Shown one piece after another: positions 15,321 to 24,680 of a stretch of 64,000 nt of DNA (positions within the stretch are counted from its first letter, which is position 1; the number at the start of each line of letters is the position of its first letter). The translations under genes and the position numbers were made by a program. The notes under the pieces are model-generated. The model was not told the origin of the DNA and did no database searches. It worked only from the letters and a program-made list of their open reading frames with translations. Origin of the DNA: Methylophilus sp. 14 (GTDB taxonomy: Bacteria > Pseudomonadota > Gammaproteobacteria > Burkholderiales > Methylophilaceae); contig NZ_JADKYS010000002.1 in NCBI RefSeq assembly GCF_015354345.1, positions 62,001 to 126,000 on the forward strand. Direction: 5' to 3'.

Positions 15321-16367
15321 ATGGAAAAAATCAAAGTTGGCATTGTAGGTGGAACGGGTTATACCGGTGTTGAGTTGCTGCGTTTGCTGGCAAGGCATCC
15401 TAATGTGCAATTACAAGTGATTACCTCCAGGGGTGAGGCCGGGTTGCCGGTCGCCGATATGTTTCCCAGCTTGCGTGGTGTTGTGGACTTAAAGTTCAGC
15501 GATCCGGCCACGGTCGATTTAACCCAATGCAATGTGGTCTTTTTTGCAACGCCACATGGTGTCGCGATGGCGCAAACGCCTGCGCTGGTGGCGGCAGGTG
15601 TGAAAGTGATTGATCTGGCGGCGGATTTCCGTCTGCAAGATGCCGTTGAGTTCGAAAAGTGGTACAAGTTACCGCATAGCTGTACGGACGTGCTGAAAGA
15701 GGCCGTGTATGGTTTGCCTGAGCTGTATGCCGCTGATGTGCAGCAGGCACAAGTCATTGGTAATCCTGGTTGCTATCCGACGACGGTATTGCTTGGCCTC
15801 GCACCGCTACTGGAAAACGGCTGGATTGATTTCTCTGTGCCTATTATTGCAGATGCCAAATCCGGCGTCTCCGGTGCTGGTAGAAAAGCCGAAGTGGGCA
15901 CCTTGTTCTCAGAGTCCAGTGATAACCTGAAAGCCTACGGTGTGGCTGGCCACAGGCACCATCCCGAAATTCTGGCCCAGTTAAAGAAACTGTCCGGTAG
16001 CGAAGTGGTCAACCTCATATTCGTCCCGCATTTGATTCCGATGATTCGTGGCATGCTGACCACTTTACATGTCAAACTTAACGCACAAGGCAAGCAACAG
16101 GCGTTGCAACAAGTCTATGAGCAACGTTATCAGGGCGCTACGTTTGTCGATGTGATGCCTGCAGGCTCACTGCCTGAAACACGCTCAGTCCGCGGTGCTA
16201 ACGTTTTGCGGATGGCACTATACCCACAAGCGGGCGATTATGTCACAATCGTTGTCGTGCAGGACAACCTGGTTAAAGGTGCTTCTGGCCAAGCCGTGCA
16301 GAATATGAATTTGATGTTTAACCTGGCGCCGGATGCCGGTTTGCAAGTGCTGCCGTTGTTGCCATAA
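15321..16367 (+). CDS. argC: N-acetyl-gamma-glutamyl-phosphate reductase
   Basis: NADPH-dependent reduction of N-acetylglutamyl-phosphate to the semialdehyde in arginine synthesis. 348 aa, type 1. Nucleotide-binding start [18 protein letters not shown], catalytic Cys in [25 protein letters not shown], and HRHHPEI. In beta-proteobacteria argC commonly follows rpsI, as here. Its stop overlaps the start of the next gene (TAATG), so the two are translationally coupled. Confidence 0.98.
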
Positions 16368-16729
16368 TGATCCGGCCGATACGCAGAAGACTGAGAAACC
16401 ATTTTGGCCTGACCGCCAAGCAGGTGGCAGTACGCTCGCACAGGCCCTGGTATTTTCAAAGCATGCTGGCGGTTTCTTATGTCCTGATTGGTTTTGCATT
16501 GGCCTACTGGGTGGTGCATGATGATGATGGTGAGCATATACGCCAGCGTTTGCGTCAAGTGACCACCGAAAATATTGAATTACAGAAAAAACTGATTGCC
16601 TCGCAGCGTGAGTTGCAAGTAGAGCTGGCCACCAGTAATAACCTGGCCAAGACGCTCACAGCGCAGCAGGATGAAAGCATCAAACTGAAAGAAGAATTGG
16701 TGTTTTACAAGAATATGACCAAGCGTTAG
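16367..16729 (+). CDS. Membrane-anchored coiled-coil protein (DUF6776-like)
   Basis: 120 aa: a basic N-terminus ([14 protein letters not shown]), one transmembrane helix about 31-50 (SMLAVSYVLIGFALAYWVV), then a coiled coil to the end (QVTTENIELQKKLIASQREL). Overlaps the argC stop by one base. It lies just before bactofilin, and beta-proteobacteria often keep this small gene in that place. The layout suits a structural or scaffold role at the inner membrane together with bactofilin, but this is inference; the family has no assigned function. Confidence 0.75.
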   Translation: MIRPIRRRLRNHFGLTAKQVAVRSHRPWYFQSMLAVSYVLIGFALAYWVVHDDDGEHIRQRLRQVTTENIELQKKLIASQRELQVELATSNNLAKTLTAQQDESIKLKEELVFYKNMTKR

Positions 16730-16797
16730 CAGGCTGCATGATATGGCTGATGCTTAATGGACATCGCCATTTAAGATAATTCGGAACAGGAAGTAGC

Positions 16798-17190
16798 ATG
16801 TTTTTCAAAAAAAGCGTTCAAATCGATAGCCACATTGATACCCTGATTGGCCATGAGACACAAATCAATGGCAATATGCAGTTTGCCGGAGGCTTGAGAG
16901 TCGATGGTTTGATTGCCGGCAATGTGATTGAAAAACGTGAACACCCCAGCACTTTGATCATTAGTGAAAACGGGGCGGTGACAGGCGCGGTAGAAGCTTC
17001 TAAAATAGTTTTGAATGGCATGATACGCGGCCCGGTCAGATCCTCTGTGTTTATCGAATTGCAAAGCAAGGCACGGATTGTGGGTGACTTGTATTACAAG
17101 TCACTGGAAATGCACACCGGTGCAGTGATTGAAGGAAAACTGATTTACCTGGGCGAGCAGGCAGAAACTGCCGAACCAGAGGCGACTTGA
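16798..17190 (+). CDS. Bactofilin
   Basis: Polymer-forming cytoskeletal protein (formerly DUF583), 130 aa, almost entirely a right-handed beta-helix of repeating short strands (INGNMQFAGGLRVDGLIAGN, ARIVGDLYYKSLEMHTGAVIEGK). The start MFFKKS matches the short amphipathic membrane-targeting N-terminus of bactofilins. AGGAAG precedes the ATG. It follows the coiled-coil membrane protein and precedes erpA. Bactofilins localise cell-wall enzymes or polar complexes; the cargo here is unknown. Confidence 0.92.
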   Translation: MFFKKSVQIDSHIDTLIGHETQINGNMQFAGGLRVDGLIAGNVIEKREHPSTLIISENGAVTGAVEASKIVLNGMIRGPVRSSVFIELQSKARIVGDLYYKSLEMHTGAVIEGKLIYLGEQAETAEPEAT

Positions 17191-17645: not shown

Positions 17646-19253
17646 TTATGTGGTCGAGTGATTGTTCTTGCCCAAGATGTTTTTAGCGGCCCTCACGCCT
17701 TGGGCAAAGGCCTCTTCAAAAATAGATATCCCGGCAGCATCTGTATGCGCAATGTGTAATTGCGGGTGCGTGTGATTCAGTAACTGGCGCGCTTGATTGG
17801 TCAGAAAGCCGGGTTGAGGGTAAGTCATGGCGTGTCCCCAGCGCCAGATGTCCATATTCAGGATGTGTTGCGATAGCTCAGGGTGTGCTTTTTGCAAGTC
17901 TTGCACAATACTGGTTTGCAAAGACGTCCATGTCCCTGCATATAACTGTTGGCGGGCCTGGTGTTCATCACTATGTGCCAATGCCCGGTAGTAAGTGAGC
18001 ACTAACTGGTCATGATAGCGTTGTGTGTCTTGATGATTGGCGACAACATAGCCCAGTCCAGCGCTGTCATATAACACATTGTCCCAGGCCAACGGCAAGT
18101 TGCCGTTCAGTTGATCCGGCTGGTTGATACTGAGATTAGCGACTAGCCATGGCGCATGTCTGATTGTCTGTGCTGCTTGTGTGAGGCTGGGGTCATTACG
18201 CAATACATAAGGCAGGGTATGTAGCGGAGACGCATAGATAACATGGTCCGCAATCCAGCGCGTGGTTTGTTGTGTGGTCAGGTCATAGACGTCTACTGTC
18301 ACGTGATGGGCTTCGAGTTGAATAGCATGGACCAGTTGACGGGTATGTATGGCGTCCTGTTGCGGGTTGGCCAGTTGCTGCGTTAGCCATGCATTGCCTT
18401 GTGGCCAGGTGAGCACCTGGTCTGTGTCGGCATTGGCCGCTTGTCCGCGCCTTGAGGCAAAGTAATGTATGCCTGCCCAGGCAGAAATGCTGGTATGAGG
18501 CATGCCGTAATCATCACGGCAGGCGTAATTCACGTACCAGTGCAAGGGTGCGCTGTGCCATCCCTGGCCATGCAGATATTCTGCCATTGTGATGCTATCC
18601 AGCATGGTGAACTGAGGGTCATGCGAGGAGGCTGCCAGTGGGATAGTAAACGCCGGTTTGTTATCGCGACCAGTGGCCTCCCTGAACACCTGCATTTGTT
18701 TTTCAAACGCTTGTATTTCTGCACGCTCGCGGTGGCCGAGTCCGTGATCCGGGCGTAAGCCTTCTTGCCATTGACCATGAATAAACAAGCGTTCTTGTGG
18801 TGCAAAGCATAAGTAGCGTTCTTGGTATAGCGGGCGGTGGCTGTCTACATTGGCGGTGATCGCCCCCGTTTCGGCAAGAAACTGCTTGAGTAGCACGTTG
18901 TCATGGTTGGGCAACGGCAGGTAATGTGCCCCCCAGGGGTAGGCGCTTATTGTATTTTTACCACTGCGCGCGTTACCGCCTACCTCAGCCTCGAGCTCTA
19001 GTAGCGCAACATCATCCATCTGGTGTTTTTGCAAATACCACCCGGCAGCCATGCCGCTGACGCCGGCACCGACAATCGCTACCTTGGTCCGCTGTGTGCT
19101 CGAGAAGGCCGGGAAGTCTGCCTGTCTGAGTTGATGTCCGGCCATATGATTGGGGCCCAGCAATGTTCCGCCAAACTGTGTTGGTGTGCTGCGTTGGCAA
19201 TGCATCAGGGCCGGGCTGAGAGCCAGACCCAGCAGAAATGTACGTCTATCCAT
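17646..19253 (-). CDS. Exported FAD-dependent amine-oxidase-like protein
   Basis: 535 aa flavoprotein. The N-terminus MDRRTFLLGLALSPALMHC resembles a twin-arginine signal (RRTFLLG) ending in a Cys, so a folded, flavin-loaded periplasmic or lipid-anchored enzyme is likely. The FAD-binding motif VAIVGAGVSGMAAGWYLQ is near 58-75, followed by ELEAEVGGNARSG as in monoamine/polyamine oxidases and phytoene desaturases. A second conserved part near the end includes THPQLHIAHTDAAGISIFEEAFAQG-type residues that close the FAD site. It is the last gene of the minus-strand block with the membrane spermidine-synthase-like gene, 7 bases apart. A polyamine-type substrate is inferred from context only. Confidence 0.78.
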   Translation of the reverse strand: MDRRTFLLGLALSPALMHCQRSTPTQFGGTLLGPNHMAGHQLRQADFPAFSSTQRTKVAIVGAGVSGMAAGWYLQKHQMDDVALLELEAEVGGNARSGKNTISAYPWGAHYLPLPNHDNVLLKQFLAETGAITANVDSHRPLYQERYLCFAPQERLFIHGQWQEGLRPDHGLGHRERAEIQAFEKQMQVFREATGRDNKPAFTIPLAASSHDPQFTMLDSITMAEYLHGQGWHSAPLHWYVNYACRDDYGMPHTSISAWAGIHYFASRRGQAANADTDQVLTWPQGNAWLTQQLANPQQDAIHTRQLVHAIQLEAHHVTVDVYDLTTQQTTRWIADHVIYASPLHTLPYVLRNDPSLTQAAQTIRHAPWLVANLSINQPDQLNGNLPLAWDNVLYDSAGLGYVVANHQDTQRYHDQLVLTYYRALAHSDEHQARQQLYAGTWTSLQTSIVQDLQKAHPELSQHILNMDIWRWGHAMTYPQPGFLTNQARQLLNHTHPQLHIAHTDAAGISIFEEAFAQGVRAAKNILGKNNHSTT

Positions 19254-19260
19254 TCGTCAG

Positions 19261-20826
19261 TCACGGCCCTTGGTGATGCCACTCCTGCTCGTAGTAATGC
19301 ACCAGTTTCTGGTTGTTCAGGCGGTTCACCTCGGCTGGCACTGCCTGCATATCCAGCGGAAATTGGAACAGTGTGGTTAATGTTTCGGGCGTCATAAAAC
19401 GCAACCCGCTCACCGCTATTTGCTGCGGGGGATGATAAGGTTGATGACTGGCAATCACATATCCCCACTCACCAAAGGAAGGAACCAGCGTATGGTAGGG
19501 GCTGGTGAGCAAGCCCACGCTCTGGATGGTATTAACGATGCACCAGTAGGACTGGCGTGCATACAGCGGTGAAGTTGATTGGATCACTGCCAGCCCGTGC
19601 TGGGATAAATGCGCTGCAACCAGTTGATAGAAACTGCTGCTATAGAGTTTGCCTAAGGCAAAGTTGGTCGGGTCAGGAAAGTCCACGACAATAAAATCAA
19701 AGAAATCTTTTTGTTGATCCAGCCAGACGAACGCATCCGCCGTCACAACACTGACTTTTGGCGAAGAAAATGCGTGTGCATTGAGCTGGCTGAGGCGGAT
19801 ATTATGTTTGAATATATCCGTCATTTCACGGTCCAGATCCACCAGTGTCACGTGCTCTATCGTGGGATACTTTAATATTTCGCGCAATGCCAGCCCATCG
19901 CCGCCACCCAGGACAAGTACGTTGCGTGGCTGCTTGATTGCGCTGAGTGCAGGATGCACCAGCGCTTCGTGATAGCGATATTCATCGCGTGAAGAGAATT
20001 GCAAGTTGCCATTGAGAAACAGCCGGGTGTCATCGTGCCATTGTGTGAGCACAATGCGCTGATAGCGTGTAGTTTTTGAAAAAATGACCCGGTCTTCAAA
20101 CAGCATTTCCTCGCTGTAACGGGTGAGGTGTTCTGCAAATAACAGTCCGGCAATTAAGCTCAAGCCAACGAGCAGGCATTGCCATAGCAGCAGCCGTGGC
20201 CGTTGCAATTGTTCGCGGAACAAGTGAATGGCCCACAGGGCGACTAATACATTCAAGAGTCCAAAGACCAGGCTGGTGCGCATCAGGCCCAGGTGTGGGA
20301 CCAGTAACAGTGGAAACGCCAGTGAGACGGCGAGTGCGCCAAGATAGTCAAAGGTCAGGACACGGGAGACCAGCTCCTTTAATGACAGCGATTGCTCCAA
20401 TATGCGCATTACTAAGGGGATTTCCAGGCCGACCAGCATGCCAATAATAAATACCAGCAGGTATAGCACGGCCTGAAAAGCGACATTGCCGTTATAGCCT
20501 ATTTGTGCAAATGCCAGAAACAACAGGGCGGCCGAAAAGCCGCCGCTAATCGCGACCAGTAGCTCCAGCTCAATAAACCGCCTCACCAGTGCGCTGGTGA
20601 TGTATTTGGAAGCCCAGGAACCTGCGCCCATGGCAAACAGGTAAACGCCGATTACGGTCGAAAACTGGGTGACGGAGTCGCCGAGTAAATAACTGGATAA
20701 TGTGCCTGCAACCAGTTCATATACCAAGCCACAACTGGCAATAATAAACACAGACGCAAAGAGCGCCTGCCGCATCGCCCGGTCGGGATTGCCGGGCCGG
20801 TGCGATGGACCTGCAGGATTAACCAT
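19261..20826 (-). CDS. Membrane-embedded spermidine synthase-like aminopropyltransferase
   Basis: 521 aa. The first 220 residues hold about six to seven hydrophobic helices (ALFASVFIIASCGLVYELVA onward); the C-terminal half is a Rossmann-fold spermidine synthase domain with VLVLGGGDGLALREIL, VTLVDLDREM, FIVVDFPDPTNFALGKLYSSSFY. GGGDG and the acidic residue of DLD bind decarboxylated SAM, and the Asp of VVDFPDP replaces the usual D-S-SDP catalytic loop. ATG 20826 is preferred to an in-frame TTG at 20841; it overlaps the stop of the DUF350 gene by 8 bases, so coupling is likely. Such membrane-fused synthases are distinct from soluble SpeE. The acceptor amine or lipid is unknown. Confidence 0.85.
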   Translation of the reverse strand: MVNPAGPSHRPGNPDRAMRQALFASVFIIASCGLVYELVAGTLSSYLLGDSVTQFSTVIGVYLFAMGAGSWASKYITSALVRRFIELELLVAISGGFSAALLFLAFAQIGYNGNVAFQAVLYLLVFIIGMLVGLEIPLVMRILEQSLSLKELVSRVLTFDYLGALAVSLAFPLLLVPHLGLMRTSLVFGLLNVLVALWAIHLFREQLQRPRLLLWQCLLVGLSLIAGLLFAEHLTRYSEEMLFEDRVIFSKTTRYQRIVLTQWHDDTRLFLNGNLQFSSRDEYRYHEALVHPALSAIKQPRNVLVLGGGDGLALREILKYPTIEHVTLVDLDREMTDIFKHNIRLSQLNAHAFSSPKVSVVTADAFVWLDQQKDFFDFIVVDFPDPTNFALGKLYSSSFYQLVAAHLSQHGLAVIQSTSPLYARQSYWCIVNTIQSVGLLTSPYHTLVPSFGEWGYVIASHQPYHPPQQIAVSGLRFMTPETLTTLFQFPLDMQAVPAEVNRLNNQKLVHYYEQEWHHQGP

Positions 20827-21034
20827 GGATAGCTGCTGCAATAATCAGGGCAATTCCCAGGCACATGGCGGCGACAATAATCGCCAGGGATAAGTTGTTT
20901 TTTTCAACCACCTCTCGCCACAAATCATAAGGGGTGATTTTGTCCAGCACAACAAAGCATAGCCAGAAAATAATGACCCCCAGCAGTGAAAAAATGATGG
21001 AGTTCTGCAAGTTGGTGAAGAGTAGAGTGTTCAA
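20819..21034 (-). CDS. DUF350 (YjfL-like) small membrane protein
   Basis: 71 aa starting at TTG 21034, which has AAAGGA 6 bases upstream; the longer open frame to 21169 runs over the preceding small gene and lacks a ribosome site. Two transmembrane helices (SIIFSLLGVIIFWLCFVVLD and LAIIVAAMCLGIALIIAAAI) flank the family signature DKITPYDLWREVVEKNN, and the protein ends AAAIHG as DUF350 proteins do. DUF350 proteins recur beside polyamine or glutathionylspermidine-type enzymes in proteobacteria; their biochemical role is not known. Confidence 0.85.
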   Translation of the reverse strand: MNTLLFTNLQNSIIFSLLGVIIFWLCFVVLDKITPYDLWREVVEKNNLSLAIIVAAMCLGIALIIAAAIHG

Positions 21035-21050
21035 CGCAATTCCTTTCAGC

Positions 21051-21194
21051 TTATTTGTGTTGCGATTCGTGGGAGCTGCCTTTGTTGACGCGCACAGAGT
21101 CGCTGCTTGTCCATAAAGGTTCGCCGTAGTACTGTAGTTTGCAAAAATAGGCGATTGCCAATACAGCACTGAGTTTATATATTTTTAGCCACAT
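21051..21194 (-). CDS. 47-aa membrane-anchored peptide (unrecognised)
   Basis: A short frame between DUF4178 and DUF350 that fills what would otherwise be a 172-bp gap in a tightly packed operon. ATG 21194 lies 12 bases after the DUF4178 stop, and its TAA is 16 bases before the DUF350 start. The peptide has a basic start (MWLKIYK), one hydrophobic stretch (LSAVLAIAYF) followed by Cys, then a polar tail rich in Ser, His and Lys (SVRVNKGSSHESQHK). It could be a small membrane subunit or a poorly conserved lipoprotein. The position and spacing support it; no family is recognised. Confidence 0.55.
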   Translation of the reverse strand: MWLKIYKLSAVLAIAYFCKLQYYGEPLWTSSDSVRVNKGSSHESQHK

Positions 21195-21206
21195 AAGGGT
21201 GTCCGG

Positions 21207-23168
21207 TTATCCATTCAGAGGGTGATCACTGTCAGCCCAGCGCCGATGTTCAAATTGCGTTCTGTAATGATAAAAGAGGGCAGGCCCAATGAGCAGGAAG
21301 ATGACCAAGGTCCAGAAATTTCCCCAGAGAGGGACGTCTGAAATGATGCGTACGGATTGAAATTTGCCCCGAGTCTGGATGTCTCCGCTACCATCACTTT
21401 CCGCTTCAATTTGCAGTTGGTATTTGCCTTTAGGCACAGCACTGAAAATGATTTCTGCATGACTGTCATTTTCACGCCAGTATTCGCCGCCGTCATAACC
21501 TGAGTAATCGCTTATTTCACGGTTGGCTGAATAGGTCAGGCCACTCTCCAGGCCAATCAGACGCACAGTCGAATACAGCCAGCTATTACTCAGGGCACCA
21601 TCCAGCTCAATGATGACATTTTGTTTGGTTGGGAATATATAAAACGGATCACTTTCGACTTCGCTTGTCACCGTGTTGTAGCGCCCATAAGAGCCAGACC
21701 AGTCATCCGACGGGTTGTTTGCGATTTGCATGGATGTGCTAAACACTACTTGTTGGCGTGCGTGCATGACAAATTCAAGCTGGATGAAAATGGCCGCGAC
21801 CATAAACAGCAAGGTAGCGTTGCGCCAGGCTGACACCGATTGGCCATAAGGATTGGGTTGGTTGGCAAAGACCCCCTGCGTTTTCGGCAGGTTTAGTGGT
21901 GTTTTGAATGCGGATGCAACTTGCTCCGGGGTCAGGTATTCGCCCTGACTCCAGTTGATTTCTTTACCTTGTAGTTCTTTGCTTAATAGGTAGGGCGGAG
22001 CAATAAAGTCTTCAATGGTTGCTGTGTCCCCCAGTTGTACCTGCCAGTAAAATTCGCCCGCGACGATCTCCACCTTGCTTTTGTATTTGGCAAAGTGCTG
22101 GTACGTATTGCCTGCGTGCAGGGCTTCGGGGCCACGGCTATATCGTGCATTGAGTTTGGGGGCGTTCAGTAAGGGTTTGAGGATATTCCAGTGTCCCTGG
22201 CTGCACACCAGCCAGCGAAAACCATAACCAGAATGATGTAGTAAATATTCTTCCCATGAGAAGAGTGTGCCGTATGCCCTGGTTGAGCGTTGGAGATAGC
22301 CGGTCACCGTAAACGCGGCCTGCTCAAAATGCCCTACACTGCCCAGCGGGAGTGTAGGGCTACCTAATAGTTTTAGTTTCTTTTGATATTTGAGTAATGT
22401 GGCCACCTGGCTGTGGCCGGCATCCAGCACAGCCGTGCAATGCGGGCAGGTGACGGTTTGTATGTTTTGTAGGCGTATAGACAGGCTGCCGCCACATTGC
22501 GGGCATTGTAACTGGCGTGTTGGTGTTTTGATGCCAGCCATCTCCATGTCACGCAAATGAGCAAGGTGCAAGTGCTCAAGGGCGACGGGCATGCCTATGA
22601 ACAGAGTGGGTGCTTGCTCTCCGCTAAACTCTAGAGTGGCATAGGTTTGTGCATCACTTAGTTCTACAAAGTGACTGGTTTTTCCGGTGATCAGTGCTTT
22701 AGGTAATTCGCCCTGGCCAGCAATACAATCCGCTTGCTCAATCCGCGTTACCGTGAGCCGTTTGCCCTGGATGGGTACACTTAATTCAGGCTGGTAACGT
22801 GACAATGGCAGGTCTGGCACAGCGCTTTTGTCGGCCTCAAAGCTCATGATATAGGCGCCGGATGACTCGGAGAGCCAACCTGTTTTTCCTGAGTCAAACA
22901 GCACGTGCCACTCGTTCCACACACCGCAGGCATGTTGGAACTGTACGCGGCCAATGACGCTAAAATGCGCTTGCAGATGGTAACCGCTGGAGCCGATCTG
23001 CAATAAGGTATTGTCAGGCAATAACTCCGCCATTTTGCCTAGGTTTTCAACGTCCTGGTCTTGGCGTAACAGGGTACTGCGACAATGTTCGCAGATAACC
23101 AGCAAGGAACTGCCTGCACGAAACTGTACTTTTGCCCCGCAGGCGGGACATTGGCTATAACGGATCAC
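21207..23168 (-). CDS. DUF4178 protein with two zinc ribbons and C-terminal membrane segments
   Basis: 653 aa. It begins with a zinc ribbon (C7, C10, C26, C29 in QCPACG and CEHC), then a DUF4178 beta-domain about 55-190, a second zinc ribbon (QCPQCGG ... TCPHC near 215-240), a second DUF4178 copy about 280-420, and two transmembrane helices (about 455-475 and 615-635) enclosing a beta-rich, probably extracytoplasmic region. The duplicated ribbon-plus-DUF4178 layout is clear in the sequence. It is downstream of and close to the SPFH gene (12 bases). DUF4178 is known mostly from this type of neighbourhood; molecular function unknown. Confidence 0.82.
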   Translation of the reverse strand: MIRYSQCPACGAKVQFRAGSSLLVICEHCRSTLLRQDQDVENLGKMAELLPDNTLLQIGSSGYHLQAHFSVIGRVQFQHACGVWNEWHVLFDSGKTGWLSESSGAYIMSFEADKSAVPDLPLSRYQPELSVPIQGKRLTVTRIEQADCIAGQGELPKALITGKTSHFVELSDAQTYATLEFSGEQAPTLFIGMPVALEHLHLAHLRDMEMAGIKTPTRQLQCPQCGGSLSIRLQNIQTVTCPHCTAVLDAGHSQVATLLKYQKKLKLLGSPTLPLGSVGHFEQAAFTVTGYLQRSTRAYGTLFSWEEYLLHHSGYGFRWLVCSQGHWNILKPLLNAPKLNARYSRGPEALHAGNTYQHFAKYKSKVEIVAGEFYWQVQLGDTATIEDFIAPPYLLSKELQGKEINWSQGEYLTPEQVASAFKTPLNLPKTQGVFANQPNPYGQSVSAWRNATLLFMVAAIFIQLEFVMHARQQVVFSTSMQIANNPSDDWSGSYGRYNTVTSEVESDPFYIFPTKQNVIIELDGALSNSWLYSTVRLIGLESGLTYSANREISDYSGYDGGEYWRENDSHAEIIFSAVPKGKYQLQIEAESDGSGDIQTRGKFQSVRIISDVPLWGNFWTLVIFLLIGPALFYHYRTQFEHRRWADSDHPLNG

Positions 23169-23180
23169 AGCAGATTGCGC

Positions 23181-24182
23181 CTAGTTGAGCTTGCTCAGCA
23201 ACTCGGCTTTTTTGCTATCGAATTCAGCCTGGGTCAAAATGCCTTTGCCGACAAGCGCATGCAGTTTTTCCAGCGTGGACACGATATCATCTGCAGCGAT
23301 AGGTTGCGAGGCGGCAGGTGTGGTTGCTGTCGACAAGTGATTTGCCATTGTTTGTGCCATGGCCATGCCTGCGCCCATACCGGCGCCTGCTCCGGCAACG
23401 CCTGCCTCATTTTGTGCTGCGAGAGGAATGGATTCGGCGACCTGAAACTGACTAAATTTGCTTAAATCACCGACGACATTCATGCTGATGCGTTTATCTA
23501 GGATGGTTTGCAGTTCTTCAGGCAGTGAAATGTTTTCGACCACCAGGTTATCCAGCGTTAGGCCATAGCGTGCAAACAATGGAGACATTTGGGTCGTGAG
23601 CAGGGTCGCTAAGGCATGCTGATTGGCGGCCATGTCAATAAAAGGTAACTTGCTATTGGCGAATATCTGGGTCAGCTCGGCAATGATCAGGTGGCGCAAC
23701 TGTCCATCCAGCTCGTCTGCGGTATATTCAGCCCGTGTGCCGCAAACCTCTTTGTAAAACAGTGTGGGATTGGTCAGGCGATAACTATACATGCCAAACG
23801 CACGTAACCTGACCATGCCAAATTCCGGGTCACGCAAGGTGATCGGGTTGGAGGTGCCCCATTTGCGGTCAAGTTGTAAACGGTTGCTAAAAAACAGAAC
23901 ATCCGATTTGAAGGGGGATTCAAACAGCTTGTCCCAGTGTTTGAGGTTGGTGAGTACCGGCAGGTTCTGGGTGTTCAGCGTATGTAAACCAGGACCAAAA
24001 TTGTCGGCAATTTGTCCTTCGTCTATGAGTAACACGCTTTGCGAGTCACGCACTGTTAATTGTGCGCCATATTGAATTTCCATATCCATCATGGGATAAC
24101 GGTAGGCAAGTATGCCATTACTGTCTTCCGTCCATTGGATAACATCAACGAATTGTTTTTTTACGAAATCGAATATACCCAC
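23181..24182 (-). CDS. SPFH-domain (virion-core/YdjI-like) protein with SHOCT tail
   Basis: 333 aa from GTG 24182, chosen because AGGGAG sits 7 bases upstream; the frame is open to 24248. It starts VGIFDFVKKQFVDVIQW, typical of the bacterial SPFH subgroup annotated as virion core protein or YdjI-like. The SPFH domain spans about 25-240, then a Gly/Ala/Met-rich segment (AGAGAGMGAGMAMAQ) and a C-terminal SHOCT helix pair (LEKLHALVGKGILTQAEFDS). SPFH proteins oligomerise at membranes and scaffold partners. It heads the minus-strand block and shares a 126-bp intergenic region with speD. Confidence 0.85.
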   Translation of the reverse strand: MGIFDFVKKQFVDVIQWTEDSNGILAYRYPMMDMEIQYGAQLTVRDSQSVLLIDEGQIADNFGPGLHTLNTQNLPVLTNLKHWDKLFESPFKSDVLFFSNRLQLDRKWGTSNPITLRDPEFGMVRLRAFGMYSYRLTNPTLFYKEVCGTRAEYTADELDGQLRHLIIAELTQIFANSKLPFIDMAANQHALATLLTTQMSPLFARYGLTLDNLVVENISLPEELQTILDKRISMNVVGDLSKFSQFQVAESIPLAAQNEAGVAGAGAGMGAGMAMAQTMANHLSTATTPAASQPIAADDIVSTLEKLHALVGKGILTQAEFDSKKAELLSKLN

Positions 24183-24308
24183 TGCTGCTCCCTGTTTGTT
24201 TTTATTAGGATGGCCATGGTCAGAACGCAAATTACTATACAATGCCAATCGACCAATTATTGTTAATATACTTCAAAATCGTGATAGATGTATTGCATCC
24301 GTTAGCAT

Positions 24309-24680
24309 ATGAAAAGATTAGCGCATAGTGGCCTGCATTTGATCGCCAATTTGCATGGTGTTGAAGCGGGGGTGAGTGTGATGACTAGTCTGCCTGCCTG
24401 CAAAAACCTCTGCCGACAGGCGGTGAAAGATGCCGGTTTAACCTTGGTTGGCGAAAGCTTTCACGATTTTGGTGAGGGGCTGGGGGTCACTGGTGCGCTG
24501 GTGCTGGCTGAGTCGCATTTGGCCATACATACCTGGCCTGAGTCTGGGTATGTGACGCTTGATGTCTTTGTGTGTAACTACACAGCTGATAACTCTGACA
24601 AAGCGAAACAGGTTTTTGAGACGTTGATCGAGGCGTATCGCCCGCAGCGGGTGCAACGGATTGAGTTGCCACGTGAGTAG
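24309..24680 (+). CDS. speD: S-adenosylmethionine decarboxylase proenzyme
   Basis: Pyruvoyl enzyme that makes decarboxylated SAM, the aminopropyl donor. 123 aa, the short prokaryotic class 1b form. Self-cleavage at the Ser of LAES-H gives the pyruvoyl group: S69, with H74 and C89 at the same relative spacing as S63/H68/C83 of the Thermotoga enzyme, so it should be active. No soluble speE lies nearby; the only aminopropyltransferase-like gene in the window is the membrane one at 19261, in the divergent block. Ends at a strong terminator. Confidence 0.95.
   Translation: MKRLAHSGLHLIANLHGVEAGVSVMTSLPACKNLCRQAVKDAGLTLVGESFHDFGEGLGVTGALVLAESHLAIHTWPESGYVTLDVFVCNYTADNSDKAKQVFETLIEAYRPQRVQRIELPRE

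Follow-up and report, generated by a model that had tools for sequence, protein, structure and literature searches.

We describe a gene cluster of Methylophilus sp. 14, found in a stretch of 64,000 nucleotides (contig NZ_JADKYS010000002.1, positions 62,001 to 126,000; hereafter the window), that combines the S-adenosylmethionine decarboxylase SpeD, a membrane-embedded aminopropyltransferase, a flavin oxidase and several membrane-associated proteins, one of them a small protein ending in lysine. A flexible tail with a C-terminal lysine (mostly -HK or -GK) is present in 97 of 112 related loci, and this tail almost certainly belongs to the system. On balance, the lysine may well be the acceptor of an aminopropyl group, on whichever side of the membrane the transfer would occur. 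The best explanation, a leading candidate that we hold with somewhat less than even confidence, is an envelope protein-modification system in which an outward-facing transferase aminopropylates the tail lysine with decarboxylated S-adenosylmethionine (dcSAM). The cluster type itself is already in print; the present analysis adds its non-random association, the conserved lysine tail and the predicted outward topology.

Six genes are packed on the minus strand and diverge from speD on the plus strand, which confirms the arrangement given in a sequence-only reading of this DNA (neighbors overlapping or separated by no more than 16 bases): in the order of transcription, the spacers are 12, 12, 16, -23 and 7 bases. 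The sixth gene of this count is an open reading frame (ORF) of 47 amino acids that the earlier reading had left unnamed. The features are as follows:

24309..24680, plus strand: SpeD, a class 1b S-adenosylmethionine decarboxylase, divergent from the other genes (PF02675, AdoMet_dc, 94.5 bits, cut-off 25; TIGR03330, SAM_DCase_Bsu, 93.1 bits, cut-off 75.65).
23181..24248, minus strand: SPFH/Band_7_1 protein with a C-terminal SHOCT domain (Pfam Band_7_1 254 bits, SHOCT 27 bits).
21207..23168, minus strand: membrane protein with two DUF4178 domains (Pfam DUF4178 83 bits, in two stretches) and two CxxC zinc ribbons, hereafter the DUF4178 protein.
21051..21194, minus strand: 47-amino-acid protein with one hydrophobic segment and the end ..HESQHK, the proposed aminopropyl acceptor through its C-terminal lysine.
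20819..21034, minus strand: short DUF350 membrane protein of 71 amino acids with a TTG start (PF03994 51.5 bits); the copy in a congener also has 71.
19261..20841, minus strand: seven-transmembrane (7-TM) domain joined to an aminopropyltransferase domain (NF002956/PRK03612 692 bits, cut-off 472; Spermine_synth 140 bits), hereafter the fusion.
17646..19253, minus strand: flavin adenine dinucleotide (FAD)-dependent amine-oxidase-like enzyme with a twin-arginine signal (DRRTFLLG..LMHC; PF01593 48 bits).

The tail was tabulated in 112 loci, namely the window, 31 loci from a search of the phylum and 80 from named genomes. DUF4178 is encoded in 87 of them, and there a script found a separate small hydrophobic protein ending in lysine in 53 loci and a lysine-ended tail on the DUF4178 protein itself in 33; L089, missed by the script, has by inspection a TTG-started ORF ending ..YIGGK. 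Ten of the 25 loci lacking DUF4178 have a polar, mostly G/S/R-rich tail that ends GK or HK. In L036, one ORF selected by the filter was not counted as a tail, its end being of a different make. In many loci the small gene has about 45-65 codons and lies between DUF4178 and DUF350; in 26 of the 53, its start and the stop of DUF4178 share 1 or 4 bases. What the small proteins have in common is a hydrophobic helix, a polar tail and, mostly after histidine or glycine, the final lysine; otherwise their sequences are hardly alike. Burkholderiales loci have no separate small gene; there it is the DUF4178 protein that closes with a hydrophobic segment followed by a tail, for example ..SSGGSYGGYSSGGSHK. 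The small proteins of seven loci (L045, L046, L048 and L050-L053) end GGK or SGK, and at least four of these loci have PspA or CesT/YjfI-like neighbors. In another cluster type, a protein of 311-367 amino acids ends RGK or GGK and has a recognizable lipobox in five of seven cases; this lipoprotein-like type should be exported. Thus, the same kind of tail is found on unrelated carrier proteins.

Because the separate small proteins of this table had been chosen among lysine-ended candidates, it was repeated as a blind choice, without regard to the last residue. At the expected place, the most hydrophobic small ORF ended in lysine in 53 of 54 loci, a figure to be read with the facts that the place and size limits were fixed after the pattern had been seen and that related loci are not independent. 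The single exception was L140, whose lysine-ended ORF lies further on. Under the same limits, 3802 random anchors were tried, 601 had such an ORF, and it ended in lysine in 40. The residue preceding the lysine in the blind set was histidine in 27, glycine in 24 and isoleucine in 2. As a background, 4.4% of the 19,402 ORFs of at least 25 amino acids in these loci end in lysine, 0.38% in HK and 0.37% in GK. Loci fetched later had a lysine-ended tail in all three plasmid loci (13 plasmid records gave a match) and in all five relatives. The 47-amino-acid gene, judged from its sequence evolution, is coding, because its differences from the copy in the congener (G302) number 13, 7 and 25 at codon positions 1, 2 and 3 and the proportion of synonymous differences (pS 0.755) far exceeds that of non-synonymous ones (pN 0.215), a pattern that disappears when other frames are read.

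Escherichia coli has systems that can be compared with this one. In strain K-12, YgiC and YjfC, peptide-spermidine ligases by their RefSeq names, adjoin DUF1190 proteins, and yjfC also lies near yjfL (DUF350) and yjfJ (PspA). The tails of the DUF1190 proteins YgiB and YjfM (L161 and L162) are G/S/R-rich and end GG (..SSRSMGG and ..SSSARGHWGG). Among the ends chosen for 25 DUF1190 matches in 22 of 200 genomes, 14 are GG, 4 GS and 2 SS, 5 look mis-framed or different, and none is a lysine. A passage in the literature lists YgiC and YjfC as relatives of ATP-grasp enzymes. The systems encoded by ygiBC and yjfIJKLMC thus share with the window cluster a DUF350 partner (yjfL), polyamine chemistry and, beside the enzyme, a G/S/R-rich tail protein. 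However, they employ a carboxyl-using amide ligase and GG tails, whereas the window type employs an amine-using aminopropyltransferase and lysine tails; the window cluster has neither an ATP-grasp ligase nor a DUF1190 partner, and its genome has no DUF1190 match. The DUF1190 tails are presumably the substrates of YgiC and YjfC, and a ligase beside GG ends together with a transferase beside lysine ends is the pattern expected if tails are substrates. If so, the protein modification proposed here would be the amine-based counterpart of the E. coli reaction that ligates spermidine to tails ending GG.

Recognition signals, too, can take the form of a short C-terminal motif whose end is fixed. The tail might therefore be a docking or sensing element, for instance for an SPFH/PspA scaffold, DUF350 or the transferase, which itself stays unmodified while the acceptor lies elsewhere. 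We regard this as unlikely, as it does not explain why an amine end stands beside an aminopropyltransferase and, in E. coli, a GG end beside a carboxyl-using ligase.

Do the genes form one system? In a sample of 299 genomes of the phylum, including the genome of the window, 32 encode a full fusion and 267 do not. DUF4178 was found in 20 of the 32 (in one below the curated cut-off) versus none of the 267 (p = 3e-23), and PF02675 in 26 of the 32 versus 45 of the 267 (Fisher p = 3e-13), statistics that ignore relatedness among the genomes. Three further fusion genomes have a class 2 S-adenosylmethionine decarboxylase (AdoMetDC), making 29 of 32 with a match to PF02675 or PF01536. These three (G216, G290 and G162; L075-L077) have no PF02675 match, and their eukaryote-type class 2 enzyme (PF01536) is encoded either on a different contig or a long way from the cluster. 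In the family of Methylophilus sp. 14, sampled with 36 genomes besides its own (21 of these from its genus), two genomes encode the fusion and only these two encode SpeD; the cluster is thus a sporadic, co-inherited unit. The association of these families is not random, and the earlier view that the genes make up one system around dcSAM with SpeD is borne out.

A scan of named genomes gave the best 80 of at least 558 loci encoding a relative. With profiles built from the first set, DUF4178 was found in 68 of these 80, the oxidase in 68, DUF350 in 67, SPFH in 50 and SpeD in 40, all lower bounds as many contigs are short. In the full set of 112 loci, DUF350 is clustered with the fusion in 93. 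All or most of the order SPFH-(SpeD)-DUF4178-small gene-DUF350-fusion-oxidase is found again in many of the 80 loci, which their record titles assign to Acidobacteria, Gemmatimonadetes, Bacteroidetes, Leptospiraceae, Elusimicrobia and Proteobacteria, and chance is therefore an unlikely cause of the arrangement. Variants occur. In Solitalea agri (L117:5440-8910), DUF4178, the small lysine-tailed protein and DUF350 form a tandem duplicate upstream of a single fusion gene. A large plasmid of Alteromonas mediterranea (L164:8932-15590) has a further cluster type, in which the fusion, SpeD, DUF4178 and DUF350 are accompanied by a toxic anion resistance protein and a lipoprotein-like protein ending SSGK, with a DNA cytosine methyltransferase adjoining.

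SpeD of the window carries the stretches ESHLAIHTWPE and VCN, so that the serine, histidine and cysteine named as essential (PMC10407285) are all kept; IHTWPE contains a proline, which may or may not be the one specific to AdoMetDC. It is the sole PF02675 match of its genome. A function as ornithine or arginine decarboxylase is not favored, as an NCBIfam scan and a check of residues gave no positive sign of either. A profile search followed by a residue check found no soluble SpeE with intact catalytic residues elsewhere in this genome, and the earlier proposal that the fusion is the likely user of dcSAM stands. The second Spermine_synth match of the genome (L066:5915-6706, C9; 263 amino acids; PRK04457 family) was rejected as a soluble SpeE: it retains the tyrosine and the first aspartate, but the histidine, the second Asp-Pro and the aspartate of GGGDG are missing. 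The name given to it by NCBI, polyamine aminopropyltransferase, is doubtful, and it may be a methyltransferase instead. A third match (C14), of 14.6 bits, lies below the cut-off. In other fusion genomes, a further aminopropyltransferase-like match in an open frame of 287-451 amino acids is present in 4 of 32 (G001, G007, G082 and G196), and G255 has a weaker one of 892 amino acids. Two of them, G082 and G196 (L071 and L072), encode a single-ORF SpeD-SpeE fusion away from the membrane cluster, so that dcSAM would serve two pathways there.

The fusion aligns with NF002956/PRK03612 over residues 20-523 (model positions 15-520 of 522). It does not belong to the canonical soluble SpeE enzymes, since in its AlphaFold2 (AF2) model (mean predicted local distance difference test, pLDDT, 93.3) seven long helices precede the enzyme domain; we assign these helices as transmembrane (TM). 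The catalytic residues GGGDG, D-x-PDP and Tyr290/His291 are kept in the fusions, and the acceptor-side motif P-x-Y of shorter enzymes is replaced by PSFG[ED]WG. At the motif position, phenylalanine occurs in 97% of 33 long proteins and tyrosine in 88% of 8 shorter ones. By sequence and by fold, the nearest solved structures are enzymes for larger acceptors, the triamine/agmatine aminopropyltransferase 1uir and the thermospermine synthase 6bq2; all 50 rows listed by Foldseek were aminopropyltransferases, none of them informative on the 7-TM part. The Thermus thermophilus (1uir, 3anx) and plant (6bq2) enzymes have the same fold and catalytic core at about 30% identity, but are soluble, have no membrane domain and use free polyamines or agmatine as acceptors. 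No new chemistry would be needed, because the aminobutyl amine of putrescine is also present in the side chain of lysine. With this amine tethered to the protein, one transfer would suffice, and the product would be N6-(3-aminopropyl)lysine.

Alternatively, the fusion might make and export a free polyamine or an aminopropylated small molecule at the membrane, to be consumed by the exported oxidase, the tail serving something else. The kept catalytic residues are compatible with this, as are the one OKR_DC_1 decarboxylase of the genome, which could make putrescine or cadaverine, and the distant relatives of the oxidase, among them putrescine oxidase, spermidine dehydrogenase and the polyamine oxidase FMS1. 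(The only strong Orn_Arg_deC_N match of the genome is, in our reading, a LysA-type protein.) However, such fusions reportedly failed to complement a spermidine synthase deletion, spermidine being absent, in work of Li and colleagues from 2019, and a free product leaves the conserved lysine tail unexplained. We thus consider it unlikely. The sequence-only reading had left the choice between a membrane-bound acceptor and an exported polyamine-like product; its single dcSAM system, with SpeD and a membrane aminopropyltransferase as the user, is retained, the membrane-bound acceptor is favored, with the lysine-ended tail of the small protein as the candidate, and the exported free polyamine has become less likely.

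MprF-type proteins, which modify phosphatidylglycerol, also join a membrane domain to a transferase. By its architecture, the transferase of the cluster could likewise modify a lipid head group and so raise the positive charge of the surface, and the cluster partners SPFH and PspA are membrane-associated. On the other hand, no lipid enzyme is found among nine annotated representatives of neighbor families, and the lysine tail and its varied carriers are unexplained. A lipid acceptor therefore seems very improbable to us.

On which side of the membrane would the aminopropylation of the tail take place? In 112 fusions, loops 2, 4 and 6 have on average 2.81, 3.55 and 2.55 lysines plus arginines, and loops 1, 3 and 5 have 0.16, 0.84 and 0.86; the means sum to 8.9 for even and 1.9 for odd loops, and even exceeds odd in every one of the 112. 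The N-terminus has a mean of 1.33, and the segment after TM7 1.44, there with 3.51 acidic residues. Applied to these loop charges, the positive-inside rule predicts that the N-terminus lies inside and the enzyme domain outside, which we regard as probable. Of the 33 DUF4178 proteins with a fused tail, 31 have a single hydrophobic segment between their zinc-ribbon part and the tail; the exceptions are L039, with a further weak segment, and L054, with two. For the oxidase, 76 of 79 ORFs were assessable, and 67 of these have a twin-arginine motif (RR proper in 65) with a hydrophobic stretch behind it. About six of the nine misses are wrong frames in over-long ORFs, and the rest are L137 (NR for RR), L124 (no motif) and L097 (a short hydrophobic stretch). 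Several lines thus agree in suggesting that the enzyme domain, the tail and the oxidase would lie outside and SpeD inside.

The same modification might instead occur with the enzyme domain and the tail still in the cytoplasm, the modified tail being exported later. dcSAM is made in the cytoplasm, and the ATP-grasp-related YgiC and YjfC should be cytoplasmic, so that such later export is needed if they modify lipoprotein tails. All 112 fusions, however, show the charge pattern expected of an enzyme domain that faces outward, and we judge a cytoplasmic reaction to be rather improbable.

From what was computed, namely the gene set, its co-occurrence, the lysine end, the coding status of the small gene and the charge-based topology, we infer a modification, its acceptor, a crossing of dcSAM, a role for the oxidase and a physiological purpose, envelope stress. 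An outline of the proposed process is as follows. SpeD would make dcSAM in the cytoplasm, and the 7-TM domain is the obvious candidate for moving it across the membrane. The transferase domain outside would then aminopropylate the C-terminal lysine of the tail, carried by the 47-amino-acid protein here, by the DUF4178 end in many Burkholderiales and by a larger, often lipoprotein-like protein in other types. The product, N6-(3-aminopropyl)lysine, would in effect be spermidine fixed to a protein. The FAD oxidase, exported by the twin-arginine (Tat) route, would likely oxidize or trim the aminopropyl group, the DUF4178/zinc-ribbon and SPFH proteins might form an inner scaffold, and DUF350 might be a membrane partner. 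In this complete form, with transfer to membrane-anchored tails on the outer face, dcSAM passed by the 7-TM domain and the Tat oxidase as trimmer or eraser, the scheme is put forward tentatively and is more doubtful than its parts.

Several points weigh against this explanation, among them the late fixing of the limits in the blind choice. The tail is absent from the fetched stretch in 15 of the 112 loci, all of them among the 25 without DUF4178, and neither class of AdoMetDC was found in the fusion genomes G037 and G057, both nearly complete, and G169, 71% complete. The two hydrophobic segments before the tail of L054 would put that tail inside, and the charges of the 53 small proteins favor an inside N-terminus and outside C-terminus in 32, oppose it in 7 and are tied in 14. 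The oxidase may stand outside the core of the system because it is found in 78 of the 112 loci only. Its matches to amine oxidases of known structure cover mainly the FAD-binding N-terminus; they indicate the superfamily and say little on the substrate. We know of no dcSAM outside the cytoplasm, the modified lysine is itself what we infer, and a conserved terminal lysine could equally be a recognition signal.

Li and colleagues are said to have described in 2019 clusters of AdoMetDC, an MFS-SpdSyn fusion and DUF350, in which the acceptor was not putrescine and no acceptor was named. The window cluster has the same fusion, a SpeD with its processing residues and a clustered DUF350; the present analysis adds the conserved C-terminal-lysine tail and the predicted outward enzyme domain. 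Passages of a later paper describe a PspA-CesT/Tir operon with a 7TM-spermidine synthase, DUF350, the lipoprotein Ctha_1186 and DUF4178 (group 2 of that paper), a variant for the ATP-grasp group that combines band-7/SHOCT with AdoMetDC and polyamine oxidase, and the proposal that PspA-based systems monitor polyamines or the aminopropylation of other substrates (Ravi et al., 2024; PMC11237479). The fusion, DUF350 and DUF4178 are common to that operon, as those passages give it, and the window cluster, but the latter has no PspA-CesT/Tir dyad and has instead SPFH-SHOCT, the Tat-type oxidase and the 47-amino-acid protein. The sequence-only reading had mentioned DUF350 and DUF4178 near polyamine enzymes; these passages have the association in print, so that the statement was right and the cluster is less new than that reading supposed. 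The words lysine and Tat were not found in the main text of PMC11237479, and in the literature searched, which mostly leaves out subscription papers, no statement was found on a terminal lysine, an outward enzyme domain or lysine aminopropylation.

If true, the scheme would add a protein modification, tie hypusine-like chemistry to the bacterial envelope and suggest what AdoMetDC may be for in bacteria that have no spermidine synthase. It would also give one logic to two operon families, with lysine-ended and GG-ended tails, that are tied to the PspA/SPFH envelope-stress proteins. For this widespread class of membrane aminopropyltransferases, the acceptor has reportedly been an open question since 2019, and a lysine fixed at the end of a tail encoded in the operon reduces it to one mass-spectrometry measurement.

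Some details of the other cluster proteins were also obtained. When start choices were compared, the likely start of the SPFH gene was the GTG at 24182; its relative in L200 has 332 amino acids. The DUF4178 protein (AF2 model, pLDDT 82.8) has TM segments at residues 442-468 and 615-645 on either side of a beta-rich domain (473-610), and its zinc-ribbon cysteines are kept across 26 sequences. The top rows of a Foldseek search with this model contained nothing but long beta matches, whose TM-scores were near 0.1. The relatives of known structure of the oxidase also include monoamine oxidase and the lysine demethylase LSD1, and in an NCBIfam scan all of its matches were far below the cut-offs. 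Outside the cluster, a bactofilin gene (window 16367-17190, plus strand), preceded by a small gene with a sub-threshold DUF6776 match, lies just upstream of the iron-sulfur insertion gene that borders the cluster.

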